Shown here piece after piece: positions 38,179 through 42,713 of a stretch of 64,000 nt of DNA. The position numbers and the translations under genes were made by a program. Under the pieces are notes generated by a model. It was given only the letters and a program-made list of their open reading frames with translations, was not told where the DNA came from and made no database searches. Numbering within the stretch: position 1 is the first letter of the stretch; each line of letters opens with the position of its first letter. Source of the stretch: Ktedonobacteraceae bacterium (GTDB lineage Bacteria > Chloroflexota > Ktedonobacteria > Ktedonobacterales > Ktedonobacteraceae); contig DASRBN010000005.1 in NCBI GenBank assembly GCA_035653615.1, positions 62,001 to 126,000 of the forward strand, written 5' to 3'.

Positions 38179-38193
38179 TTCTTTCTCCTTCAA

Positions 38194-38276
38194 TAAGTGT
38201 ATTTAGTACACTTACATAAGTGTAAAAAAAACACTTTGTCCGCGGACAAAAGAAAAAAGTGTTTTCTGTACACTAA
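38194..38276. promoter_or_regulatory. Nested inverted-repeat cluster upstream of nadB, probable operator region
   Basis: Several dyads are packed here. AGTGTA-TTTAG-TACACT is at 38196-38212 and ACACTT-ACAT-AAGTGT at 38208-38223. The perfect 16-bp palindrome TTTGTCCGCGGACAAA is at 38235-38250, flanked by AAACACTTT and AAGTGTTTT arms, and TGTACACT is at 38267-38274. The recurring half-site is AGTGT/ACACT. By position this should control the nadB-nadC-nadA operon. A NAD-responsive repressor of the NrtR, NiaR or NadQ type is a reasonable guess, but I cannot match the motif to a specific regulator. Confidence 0.65.
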
Positions 38277-38349
38277 CTGATTAATGCCAAGTATACCAGG
38301 GAATTTTCCAAAATTCAAGGGGAAAAGAACGATAGAACGATCCTTCTTC

Positions 38350-38438
38350 TTGACAATCATGTAATCTGAGAGATACCTTTAAACTGTTGTATTTCTTCTC
38401 TTCCGCCTCTGGAAGAGCCATTCTCAAGGGGGAGTAAA
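38350..38438 (+). promoter_or_regulatory. Promoter and leader hairpin of the first S53 peptidase gene
   Basis: TTGACA at 38350-38355 is followed after 18 bp by a weak -10, TACCTT at 38374-38379. A perfect 7-bp hairpin (CTCTTCC-GCCTCT-GGAAGAG, 38398-38417) lies before the ribosome site AAGGGGGAG. The same order and near-identical hairpin are found before the second S53 gene at 41193-41280. Confidence 0.6.
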
Positions 38439-38441
38439 CAT

Positions 38442-39821
38442 TTGAAACACATTACTAGCAGCCAGCCACAAGGCCACTTTGTAAGAGTATCATTTGCTCT
38501 GGCTATCGCCCTCAGCCTCATCTCTGTCTTTGCCGGTACTGGCCCCGTGTCGGCATCCAGCAGCCCGCCGAAACACAAATCGTTCTCGATCAACTATCAT
38601 GGACACCCGGCCAGACTCTATGAACCGAATTCGACAACCCCGCCTACCGATGCCCAGTGCCGCCAGCAATACGGTATACCTTGCTACAGTCCGCAGGAAA
38701 TGCGCACGGCATACGACCTGAATCCCATCCTGAACGCGGGCTATGATGGGACCGGCCAGACCATTATCATCATCGACTCCTTCGGTAGCCCCACCATAAA
38801 GAGTGATTTGAAGACCTTTGATGCCGGCTATGGCCTGCCAGACCCTCCCTCATTCAAAATACTTCATCCGGTTGGCTCAGTACCTTTCAATCCCAATGAT
38901 GGCACGATGGTCTCCTGGGCCGTTGAGACTTCGCTCGATGTCGAATGGGCCCATGCCATGGCTCCTGGCGCCAACATTGTACTCATGACCAGCCCCGTAG
39001 CGGAGACGCAGGGTGTAATGGGTATGCCCAAATTCTTGCACCTGGAAAAATATGCCCTCGATCATCACCTGGGCAATATTATCTCGCAAAGCTGGGCTAC
39101 GACTGAAAACACCCTCTTCGCGAATAAGGCCGGTAAAATAGTGCTGAAGGACTTCGAGGCCTTCTACCAGCAGGCCGCGCAGGACAACGTCACCGTTTTT
39201 GCCTCCTCCGGCGATACCGGTGTGGCTAATCCCGATGTCAACGGGCAGATTTACCCTTTCCCTACCGTCAATTTTCCCGCGTCATCTCCCTATGTCACAG
39301 CCGTCGGCGGCACCAGCCTCTATGCCGACACACAGGGCAACTACCAGTCCGAAAATGGCTGGAGCGGCTCCGGCGGGGGCATCAGCCAGTACTTCGCCGA
39401 ACCTGACTACGAGGTGAACTACCTGCCCCCATCCATCCAAAGCCAGTTGAACAACCATCGCGGCCTGCCCGACATCTCCTACAACGCCGACCCCAGCACC
39501 TCCATTTTGTATTACGCCAGTTTCATACCGGGTCAGTCCGGCTACTACTTCGTCGGTGGCACCAGCGAAGGCTCACCCCAGTGGGCCGGCATCATTGCCG
39601 ATGCCAACGACTTTGCCGGATATCCCCTCGGCTTCTTGAATCCGAAGTTATATGCCCTGGGAGCCGGTTCGCAGTACAATACTCTCTACCACGACATTCT
39701 GGTAGGTAATAATAGTAACGATGGCATTCAGGGCTACAACTGTGGCCCCGGTTGGGACTTTGTTACCGGCTGGGGAACCCTCGATGCCGCGCAGCTTATT
39801 CATGCCCTCGTCGGAAAATAG
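38442..39821 (+). CDS. Secreted S53 (sedolisin-like) serine-carboxyl peptidase
   Basis: A 459-aa exported acid protease. A signal peptide with hydrophobic core FALAIALSLISVFAG (about 18-32) is followed by a likely cleavage near VSAS. The catalytic glutamate and aspartate are E162 and D166 in VETSLDVEWAHAM, the oxyanion aspartate is D258 in SSGDTGVANP, and the nucleophile is S375 in VGGTSEGSPQ; this is the Glu-Asp-Ser arrangement of sedolisins. The usual long N-terminal prodomain is missing: only about 60 residues separate the signal from the catalytic domain (TAYDLNPILNAGYDGTGQT). The start is TTG, since AAGGGGGAG lies just upstream and no ATG gives a signal peptide. A close paralogue lies at 41284. 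Confidence 0.9.
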   Translation: MKHITSSQPQGHFVRVSFALAIALSLISVFAGTGPVSASSSPPKHKSFSINYHGHPARLYEPNSTTPPTDAQCRQQYGIPCYSPQEMRTAYDLNPILNAGYDGTGQTIIIIDSFGSPTIKSDLKTFDAGYGLPDPPSFKILHPVGSVPFNPNDGTMVSWAVETSLDVEWAHAMAPGANIVLMTSPVAETQGVMGMPKFLHLEKYALDHHLGNIISQSWATTENTLFANKAGKIVLKDFEAFYQQAAQDNVTVFASSGDTGVANPDVNGQIYPFPTVNFPASSPYVTAVGGTSLYADTQGNYQSENGWSGSGGGISQYFAEPDYEVNYLPPSIQSQLNNHRGLPDISYNADPSTSILYYASFIPGQSGYYFVGGTSEGSPQWAGIIADANDFAGYPLGFLNPKLYALGAGSQYNTLYHDILVGNNSNDGIQGYNCGPGWDFVTGWGTLDAAQLIHALVGK

Positions 39822-39848
39822 TCTGTTCGTAGCCTGTATCCATCCTTA

Positions 39849-39897
39849 TACGTGCCTGCGATTTCATTGCCTCAAATGAGATTGCAGGCATACGTAG
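39849..39897. repeat. Long imperfect hairpin between peptidase and propeller genes
   Basis: TACGTGCCTGCGATTTCATT pairs with AAATGAGATTGCAGGCATAC plus GTA, with small mismatches and a short loop. It lies after the peptidase stop and before the propeller ribosome site, without a T-run. It may protect the peptidase mRNA 3' end or form a factor-dependent terminator. Confidence 0.55.
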
Positions 39898-39931
39898 GTA
39901 ATGTCGCATGCGATAGCAGGAGGTAACTTCC

Positions 39932-41134
39932 ATGAACCGTCTCATCTCACTGATCGCTCTGCCTGGTCTCGCCCTTGTCTTGCTACTCGCTCTTCCGCCA
40001 GCCCATATACTGGCAGCTAGCTCTGCAGGCCTGACTTCTTCCCGCGCGCATTCCGGCATCTCTAAAAATCACAAGCACTGGCAGGTGATCCCCAGCCCGA
40101 ATGTTGGTAGTACCGGTAGTGATCTTCTCGCCATCTCCTCGATCTCTACCGGCGATATCTGGTCGGTTGGCGTCTTCTATACTCCACAGTACACGCCTCA
40201 AACCCTGGTTGAACATTGGAACGGCACAGCCTGGCAGGTTGTCCCCAGCCCGAATAATGGCCAGGACGAAAACCAGTTAAATGGAGTGGCCGCCATTTCC
40301 AGCACCAATGTCTGGGCCGTTGGATACTACAAAAATGGAGTTCTACGAACGCTCATTGAACACTGGGATGGCACGCAATGGAGCATTATCCCCAGTCCCA
40401 ATGCCGGAAACTCAGACAACCAGCTCGAAGGCATCTGGGCACTCTCCCAGAACGATATCTGGGCCGTAGGAACATACTTCGATATTTCCAAAAACAGCAA
40501 CCTCACTCTGGTCGAACATTGGAATGGCTCAAAATGGAAACTGGTTTCCAGCCCCAATACCGGCGAGAGCATCAATGTTCTTACCGCGGTCACCGCCGTT
40601 TCCAAAAATAACATCTGGGCTGTTGGCTATGGCGAAACCCCAGGATACATCACCCTGGTCGAACATTGGGATGGCACGCGGTGGAGTATCATCGCCAGCC
40701 CCAATCCCGGTAACAGCAACAGCTCTCTGGAAGGGCTGACGGTTGTTGCCGCCAATAACATCTGGGCTGCCGGTTTCTACTACGACAACAATTCAAATAC
40801 CGATAAGACGCTCATCGAACACTGGGACGGCACGCAATGGAGCATTATCCCCAGCCCGAACGTGGGTACGGACTTTTGCCAGCTCTACGGCGTCGCAGCT
40901 ATTTCAGCGCGTAATATCTGGGCAGTGGGAGTCGATACACGTGTTCCCCCAGTGTTTACCCTGGCCGAACACTGGAATGGCACAAAATGGAGCATTGTCA
41001 AAAGCCCCAACGTCAGCAAAACATACAACGGCCTCTCCGCAGTCATTGCGGTTTCAGGCAATCTCTGGGCCGTCGGCGAATATTTCAATACTTCGGAATA
41101 CGCCTATGATACTTTAATCGAGTATTATGGATAG
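39932..41134 (+). CDS. Secreted seven-repeat beta-propeller protein (WxVVPSPN repeats)
   Basis: A 400-aa exported protein. The signal peptide LISLIALPGLALVLLLALPP runs to about residue 29 (AHILAA cleavage region). The remainder is seven repeats of about 50 residues with the pattern WxIIPSPNxG, a variable part, GVxAISxxNIWAVG, then TLxEHWDGT. Seven such units fit one closed seven-bladed propeller; the first begins with KHWQVIPSPN and the last ends TLIEYYG. No catalytic motif is visible, so binding of polymer or protein at the cell surface is likely. GGAGG precedes the ATG. It sits between two S53 peptidases and may be expressed with the first. Confidence 0.85.
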   Translation: MNRLISLIALPGLALVLLLALPPAHILAASSAGLTSSRAHSGISKNHKHWQVIPSPNVGSTGSDLLAISSISTGDIWSVGVFYTPQYTPQTLVEHWNGTAWQVVPSPNNGQDENQLNGVAAISSTNVWAVGYYKNGVLRTLIEHWDGTQWSIIPSPNAGNSDNQLEGIWALSQNDIWAVGTYFDISKNSNLTLVEHWNGSKWKLVSSPNTGESINVLTAVTAVSKNNIWAVGYGETPGYITLVEHWDGTRWSIIASPNPGNSNSSLEGLTVVAANNIWAAGFYYDNNSNTDKTLIEHWDGTQWSIIPSPNVGTDFCQLYGVAAISARNIWAVGVDTRVPPVFTLAEHWNGTKWSIVKSPNVSKTYNGLSAVIAVSGNLWAVGEYFNTSEYAYDTLIEYYG

Positions 41135-41192
41135 CATACCAGGACGCCCATAAAAGGAATATCCACGCCCGCCCATTTCCCGCCTTTTTCCC

Positions 41193-41280
41193 TTGACAAT
41201 TCCTGAGTTTGAAGGGTATGCTTCTTGTATCCTTTTATTTCAGCTCTTCCGTTGCCAGAAGAGCCATTCACAGGGGGAAA
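41193..41280 (+). promoter_or_regulatory. Promoter and leader hairpin of the second S53 peptidase gene
   Basis: TTGACA at 41193-41198 and TATGCT at 41217-41222 have an 18-bp spacer. A hairpin with stem CTCTTC/GAAGAG (41244-41263) is followed by GCCATTCACAGGGGG, matching the leader of the first S53 gene almost base for base. The conservation of this noncoding stretch argues for shared control. Confidence 0.65.
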
Positions 41281-41283
41281 ATT

Positions 41284-42654
41284 TTGATTCACTCAACCCG
41301 CGCCACGGCTCGCGAACACGTTTCCATCGTGTCTTTCGTCGTAGCCATTACCATCAGCCTTTTGTCTATTTTTGCTGCTACCAGCACCGCCTGGGCCGCC
41401 AGCAGTACGGCGAGAAACATCTCTTTCAACCCGAAGCTGCCTCCGCTGGTCACTGCCGGACCAAATTCGTCCACTCCGCCCACGGACTCTCAGTGTCATT
41501 CGCAGTATCACCATCCCTGCTACAGTCCGCAGGAAATGCGCACTGCCTACGACCTCAACCCGATTCTCAATGCCGGATATAACGGCTCCGGCCAGACCAT
41601 CATCATCATCGACTCCTATGGCAGCCCTACTATCCAGAGCGACCTGAAGACCTTCGATGCCGGTTATGGTCTGCCAGATCCGCCATCCTTCCAGGTGCTT
41701 CACCCACTTGGCACAAAACCATGGGATCCACACGATCAAACCATGGTCTCCTGGGCATACGAGACCTCGCTGGATGTCGAATGGGCGCATGCCATGGCTC
41801 CTGGCGCCAATATCGTCCTCATGACCAGCCCTGTCGCCGAGACGCAAGGCGTCCCTGGTATGCCGCAATTCTTGAAGCTGGAAAAGTACGCTCTCAAGCA
41901 TAAGCTCGGCAACATCATCTCGCAGAGCTGGGCCACCACGGAAAATACCCTCTTCGCCAATAAAAAGGGCTTAAAGGTGCTCAGTGACTTCGAGAACTTT
42001 TATGCCAGCGCTGTAAAGCAGAACGTCACCATCTTCTCTTCGTCCGGCGATTCCGGTGTGGGTAATCCCGATACGCATGGCCAGATCTATCCATTCCCCA
42101 CCGTCAACTATCCTGCCTCTTCCCCATACGTAACGGCTGTTGGGGGTACCGACCTCACCGCCGATACGCAAGGAAACTACCAGTCTGAGGTTGGCTGGAG
42201 CGGCTCCGGCGGCGGTATCAGCCAGTACTTCGCCGAACCTGACTACGAGGTGAGCTACTTGCCACCATCCATTCAGAGCCAGTTGAACAACCATCGTGGC
42301 TTACCCGACATCTCCTATAATGCTGACCCCAGTACGTCCATCGTGATTTACGGCAGTTTCCTCGGAACCGGAACCTGGTACTTCATCGGTGGCACCAGCG
42401 AGGGATCGCCACAATGGGCCGGCATCATTGCCGATGCCAATCAGTTTGCCGGCCATCCGCTCGGCTTCCTGAATCCACAACTCTATGCTCTGGGAGCCGG
42501 TTCGCAGTACAACACCCTCTATCACGACATTTTGACGGGCAACAATAGCAGCCACGGCATTCAGGGCTACAACGCCGGACCCGGTTGGGACTTTGTCACC
42601 GGCTGGGGCACACTCGACGCCGCGCAACTCATTCACGCCCTCGTCGGAAAATAG
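41284..42654 (+). CDS. Secreted S53 (sedolisin-like) peptidase, paralogue
   Basis: A 456-aa paralogue of the protein at 38442. The signal peptide contains SIVSFVVAITISLLSIFAAT, with probable cleavage after TAWA. The catalytic residues are E160 and D164 in YETSLDVEWAHAM, D256 in SSSGDSGVGNP and S372 in FIGGTSEGSPQ. The catalytic domain is nearly identical to its partner, while the region after the signal peptide (STARNISFNPKLPPLVTAGP) differs. The TTG at 41284 was chosen by analogy with the paralogue: both have AGGGGG a few bases before a TTG, and the longer frame from 41209 would put about 25 residues before the signal. The duplication includes the promoter region. Confidence 0.9.
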   Translation: MIHSTRATAREHVSIVSFVVAITISLLSIFAATSTAWAASSTARNISFNPKLPPLVTAGPNSSTPPTDSQCHSQYHHPCYSPQEMRTAYDLNPILNAGYNGSGQTIIIIDSYGSPTIQSDLKTFDAGYGLPDPPSFQVLHPLGTKPWDPHDQTMVSWAYETSLDVEWAHAMAPGANIVLMTSPVAETQGVPGMPQFLKLEKYALKHKLGNIISQSWATTENTLFANKKGLKVLSDFENFYASAVKQNVTIFSSSGDSGVGNPDTHGQIYPFPTVNYPASSPYVTAVGGTDLTADTQGNYQSEVGWSGSGGGISQYFAEPDYEVSYLPPSIQSQLNNHRGLPDISYNADPSTSIVIYGSFLGTGTWYFIGGTSEGSPQWAGIIADANQFAGHPLGFLNPQLYALGAGSQYNTLYHDILTGNNSSHGIQGYNAGPGWDFVTGWGTLDAAQLIHALVGK

Positions 42655-42672: not shown

Positions 42673-42713
42673 AGGGTTGAGTATAGCGCCCGCGCTGTAC
42701 CCAACCCTTTCTA
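42673..42713. terminator. Bidirectional terminator between convergent genes
   Basis: AGGGTTG (42673-42679) pairs with CAACCCT (42702-42708), with further inner pairing of GTA/TAC and AGCG/CGCT. TTTCT follows on the plus strand. It separates the second S53 gene from the convergent S51 gene, which ends at 42714. Confidence 0.7.

Follow-up and report, generated by a model that had tools for sequence, protein, structure and literature searches.

The peptidase-propeller-peptidase cluster is best explained overall, with a probability of about 0.65, by a lineage-specific tandem duplication of a peptidase gene along with its promoter and 5' leader, a leader that stabilizes the mRNA or acts in translation initiation, and a propeller gene that sits between the copies incidentally. 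The cluster lies in the window, the whole stretch of 64,000 nucleotides that was analyzed, which comes from the 6.59-Mb genome, in 44 contigs, of a soil-dwelling member of the Ktedonobacter family. On the plus strand the order is peptidase copy 1 (TTG start, 38442-39821), the propeller gene (ATG start, 39932-41134) and peptidase copy 2 (TTG start, 41284-42654). The arrangement given in the preliminary description, two S53 peptidase genes flanking an exported protein with a predicted seven-bladed propeller, is present. Its features were real and in part overstated, and the cluster as a whole is mostly ordinary.

Two S53 peptidases from a tandem duplication

Copy 1 (38442-39821) encodes a 459 aa peptidase of the S53 family (kumamolisin/sedolisin type) with a signal peptide, and copy 2 (41284-42654) encodes one of 456 aa, likewise with a signal peptide. 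The TTG starts proposed for both genes held up. The TTG at 38442 is the sole start codon of copy 1 that retains the signal peptide. For copy 2 the start at 41209 in the list of open reading frames was rejected, as homology with copy 1 and the Shine-Dalgarno CAGGGGGAA both indicate 41284. Both peptidases matched kumamolisin by sequence, as did the structural model of copy 1 (pLDDT 91) by fold. Foldseek comparison of this model to 1sio gave an E-value of 9.5e-29 and a TMt of 0.86, placing it in the subtilisin-like S53 fold. The peptidases share the catalytic fold, the Glu-Asp-Ser triad, the oxyanion Asp and the C-terminal HDI...GPGWD region with kumamolisin and sedolisin (MEROPS S53; PDB 1t1e, 1sio). 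The active-site residues E162, D166, D258 and S375 of copy 1 were invariant in an alignment of 77 relatives and were also identified by alignment to kumamolisin. Both copies have these residues intact and are presumably exported and active. Given the link between S53 enzymes and acidic settings (PMC6411800), we infer that their likely role is that of extracellular acid endopeptidases.

The two copies had been described as near-identical, which is too strong: they share 78% amino acid and 75% nucleotide identity, with amino acid identity falling to 38% over the first ~58 residues. The dS between them was 1.26 and they were placed as sisters on the tree with 100% support. Together the amino acid identity, the dS and the sister placement show a single old duplication that is specific to this lineage. 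In the proposed mechanism, a gene for a prodomain-less secreted S53 acid peptidase would have been duplicated in tandem with its promoter and a 5' leader of ~50 nt, and selection would have held promoter and leader similar while the synonymous sites came close to saturation. The leader pair can be regarded as a small natural experiment on what stays conserved after the duplication of a secreted-protease gene. The named relatives nearest to the peptidases are Ktedonobacteraceae.

Two other tandem S53 pairs were seen in this genome. A different pair occurs at locus L006 (1492-2826 and 2867-4204) and has counterpart pairs in three other genomes (G026, G013 and G014), so that this type of arrangement is conserved, unlike the pair in the window. 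A third pair, of short, prodomain-less S53 genes, occurs at locus L009 (1510-2685 and 2754-3983).

Lack of the prodomain among the S53 relatives

The PF09286 (Pro-kuma_activ) prodomain is common among characterised S53 members. The preliminary description had noted that the window peptidases have almost no prodomain, and this was correct. Only ~80 aa (81 in copy 1), signal peptide included, precede the catalytic domain, neither peptidase matched PF09286, and the copy 1 model showed no prodomain. Kumamolisin, in contrast, carries a long activation prodomain, with the catalytic match in 1t1e beginning at residue ~183. We filed the window peptidases as S53 on the view that the catalytic domain, rather than the prodomain, would define the family by sequence.

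The prodomain was absent from 70 of the 77 S53 relatives, with PF09286 matched in the other seven. On a quick tree the six members with long N-termini made up two small groups; the pair from the window lay deep among the short ones. From these counts and the tree position, the lack of a prodomain is a trait of a large family and not a peculiarity of this cluster. There are 18 S53 genes in this genome, eight with a fused PF09286 prodomain and ten without. A prodomain acting in trans was considered and rejected, as all eight PF09286 matches lie just upstream of S53 catalytic domains in the same open frame; no orphan PF09286 prodomain was found in this genome. The prodomain-less set is broad, including members from Chloroflexota, Actinomycetota, Planctomycetota, Verrucomicrobiota, Legionella and Thermoplasmatota, and how such peptidases fold and avoid early activation is a testable question. 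A search of the open-access literature, whose outcome is no evidence of novelty, turned up no papers on S53 clades that lack the prodomain or on such peptidases of the S53 family in Ktedonobacter.

Promoters and conserved 5' leaders

A duplicated promoter had been proposed for the two peptidase genes. TTGACA with an 18-bp spacer was indeed present at both, while the -10 of copy 1 was poor. Promoter P1 (38350-38379, plus strand) has the weak -10 TACCTT (3/6 match), and P2 (41193-41222, plus strand) has TATGCT; TTGACAAT is conserved between them. A consensus promoter scan reported only P2. Downstream, both genes carry the leader core CTCTTC...GAAGAGCCATTC-CA-GGGG, as originally described. The core of copy 1 (38387-38434, plus strand) has stem arms at 38398-38404 (CTCTTCC) and 38411-38417 (GGAAGAG) and the Shine-Dalgarno AAGGGGGAG at 38426-38434. 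In copy 2 (41233-41280, plus strand) the arms are at 41243-41249 (GCTCTTC) and 41258-41264 (GAAGAGC) and the Shine-Dalgarno CAGGGGGAA is at 41271-41279.

The leader cores are identical at 36 of 48 positions. The 12/48 that differ (25%) compare with 125/280 third codon positions (45%; Fisher p = 0.011), and 33 of 42 leader bases are identical compared with 49% at fourfold sites (binomial 8e-5), both being comparisons of two sequences only that were chosen after the leader had been seen. The leader forms a sharp conserved island, with flanking coding and upstream DNA about 45-55% identical. Differences in the leader fell 4/4/4 over the codon positions as compared to 37/23/125 in the genes, so the leader does not evolve like coding DNA. 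Since it has changed less than third codon positions the leader is probably constrained, although two leader sequences alone do not firmly distinguish constraint from a slow local rate of divergence or from gene conversion of part of the region. The leader conservation had been taken to mean shared regulation of the two copies. This reading is plausible and is supported by a promoter and leader that stayed similar while neighboring neutral sites diverged.

The proposed CTCTTC/GAAGAG hairpin folds in both leaders, as a 7-bp hairpin in copy 1. Its predicted stability, however, was that of dinucleotide shuffles (z -0.06 and -0.67), and both arms are invariant between the copies, giving no covariation to support a hairpin over a sequence motif. 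A covariance model built on the leader (R1) was run against 29 genomes of the same family (E up to 10) and against 47 genomes of the class, among which the 29 are counted (E up to 0.1); neither search gave a convincing third copy. The leader was not recognisably shared by the closest relatives of the peptidases. A dispersed regulatory element was rejected, as R1 finds only these two convincing sites in the genomes searched and a match at E 2.1 was taken as chance. A known leader or riboswitch was likewise rejected: no Rfam match was above threshold, the sub-threshold ones being MIR397 and the L20 leader. A third close paralogue (62%) has its Shine-Dalgarno inside a strong GGCTCTTCTCG...CGAGAAAGGAGCC hairpin (L005 1464-1503), and this may be the same leader in diverged form.

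Possible functions of the leader

Going by the predicted transcription starts, about 12-14 nt would separate the 5' end of the mRNA from the stem-loop, which lies just upstream of the G-rich Shine-Dalgarno. The leader would most likely protect the mRNA and/or set translation initiation at the TTG start. Tentatively, and at somewhat under even odds, we take mRNA stabilization of the aprE type to be its most likely function, by analogy. The Bacillus subtilis aprE (subtilisin) leader likewise combines a short 5'-proximal stem-loop and a strong ribosome-binding site ahead of an extracellular protease gene, and the anatomy of the leaders described here fits this type of stabilizer. The aprE leader mRNA is described as stabilized by its 5' stem-loop and ribosome binding (Hambraeus et al. 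2002, as cited in PMC7509114). B. subtilis, however, belongs to a different phylum and its protease to a different family, so that the likeness is one of anatomy from which the function here would follow by inference only.

A serious alternative, although a less likely one, is that nothing in the leader is functional apart from promoter and ribosome site. Its conservation would then be only what is left of a promoter and ribosome-binding site common to both copies, with some chance identity added, or a small patch of gene conversion, and the stem-loop would be functionless. The p-value of 0.011 against third positions is modest and comes from a comparison picked post hoc, the hairpin z-scores are near 0, and the family and class genomes held no further copies, all consistent with this reading. 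It accounts poorly for the sharpness of the island against its diverged flanks, and neither the arms nor the CCATTC box belong to the usual promoter or Shine-Dalgarno.

It is considerably less probable that the leader is a translational switch, a thermometer or conditional start in which the Shine-Dalgarno is taken up by pairing with a 5' pyrimidine tract or with a second hairpin. The Shine-Dalgarno was ~65% paired in the ensemble in both leaders and opened gradually with temperature, and the third paralogue buries its own in a strong hairpin. The pairing partner differs between the copies, however, being a local hairpin in copy 1 and the 5' tract in copy 2, and covariation was again lacking. 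The unrelated propeller mRNA was equally paired (0.25 unpaired). With only a shallow opening from 20 to 60 C and pairing that is not peculiar to the peptidase genes, a thermometer was rejected.

It is very improbable that the leader is instead coding, with the true start of copy 2 upstream at 41209 or 41218 and, in copy 1, either a leader peptide or an N-terminus that is frameshifted. The same frame does give LYFFSSASGRAILKGE-stop for copy 1 and FYFSSSVARRAIHRGK for copy 2, but the differences show no codon-position bias and both TTG codons directly follow a Shine-Dalgarno. In addition, the upstream start of copy 2 overlaps the promoter -10, and a stop codon precedes the TTG in copy 1.

The propeller and its place in the cluster

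The gene between the peptidases (39932-41134, plus strand) encodes an exported protein of 400 aa with the repeat WxxxPSPN...WAVG...TLxEHWNGT. The seven-bladed propeller of the preliminary description was borne out: seven ~50-aa repeats are predicted to form seven blades of four strands each, and in the model (28 strands, pLDDT 87) the repeats close into a ring. YCF48 and CylK propellers were among the best PDB fold matches, but at 12-16% identity the likeness is of fold only. The propeller is one of ~20 paralogues in this genome, and the others have no S53 gene in the flanks examined (mostly 7-8 kb).

Hairpins follow both peptidase genes. The copy 1/propeller intergenic region (z -3.98) contains a 17-bp hairpin without a U-tract (39852-39890, plus strand), a candidate terminator or attenuator. 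A strong hairpin followed by UUUCU (42673-42710, plus strand; z -5.53) is the likely terminator of copy 2. The presence of these hairpins suggests that the copies are transcribed separately, and read-through may reach the propeller gene. As no obvious promoter precedes it, the propeller gene may be co-transcribed with copy 1, which would leave some functional link possible. The 39852-39890 hairpin was also considered as a dispersed repeat and rejected, with only one 25-nt partial match elsewhere.

The preliminary description had suggested that peptidases and propeller might form a functional unit, and had named a lack of conserved gene order in relatives as part of what would speak against it. 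Conserved gene order was not found, and the trio as a functional unit is not supported. No propeller was found beside S53 genes in 15 loci of the same family (flanks of mostly ~8 kb on each side, a few of the loci being on short contigs or close to a contig end), at five loci of the peptidases' own prodomain-less paralogues in this genome, or, by profile search, at other S53 loci with shorter flanks, with one weak exception. At this exception, locus L066 (6358-9266) from Streptosporangiaceae, two propeller-like genes are near an S53 gene.

It is therefore doubtful, and we rate it as quite improbable, that the propeller is dedicated to the two prodomain-less peptidases as their folding partner, their inhibitor or a receptor for their substrate. 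The genes are adjacent on the same strand, both proteins are apparently exported, no promoter-like site was seen directly before the propeller gene, YCF48 bound to peptide was among the top fold matches, and L066 offers a second case of neighboring genes. Against this, the association is not conserved in same-family S53 loci, the propellers at L066 are on the opposite strand and about 1.8 kb or more away, and ~20 propellers of this genome lie away from any S53 gene. The proposal also assumed that an S53 peptidase without a prodomain needs a substitute partner, and the 70 of 77 relatives that lack one undercut this premise and argue against the propeller as a general folding partner. Nearly all S53 loci also have no propeller nearby. 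With ~20 propellers and ten prodomain-less S53 genes among several thousand genes, chance adjacency is not very unlikely (estimated at a few per cent). The least probable reading is that a lineage-private cis-acting RNA leader co-controls the two peptidases and that the propeller, acting in trans, stands in for the missing prodomain in this lineage only. The propeller between the copies is probably incidental, a member of a large family of exported propellers, and would be a chance neighbor of the duplicated peptidase gene.

Upstream of the cluster, three palindromic repeats of the AGTGTA...TACACT type and a TTTGTCCG/CGGACAAA palindrome occur at 38192-38280 in the window. They lie directly upstream of minus-strand nadB-nadC-nadA (gene names by reading of the open reading frames), and by sequence and position this looks like an operator array of some NAD-synthesis regulator.
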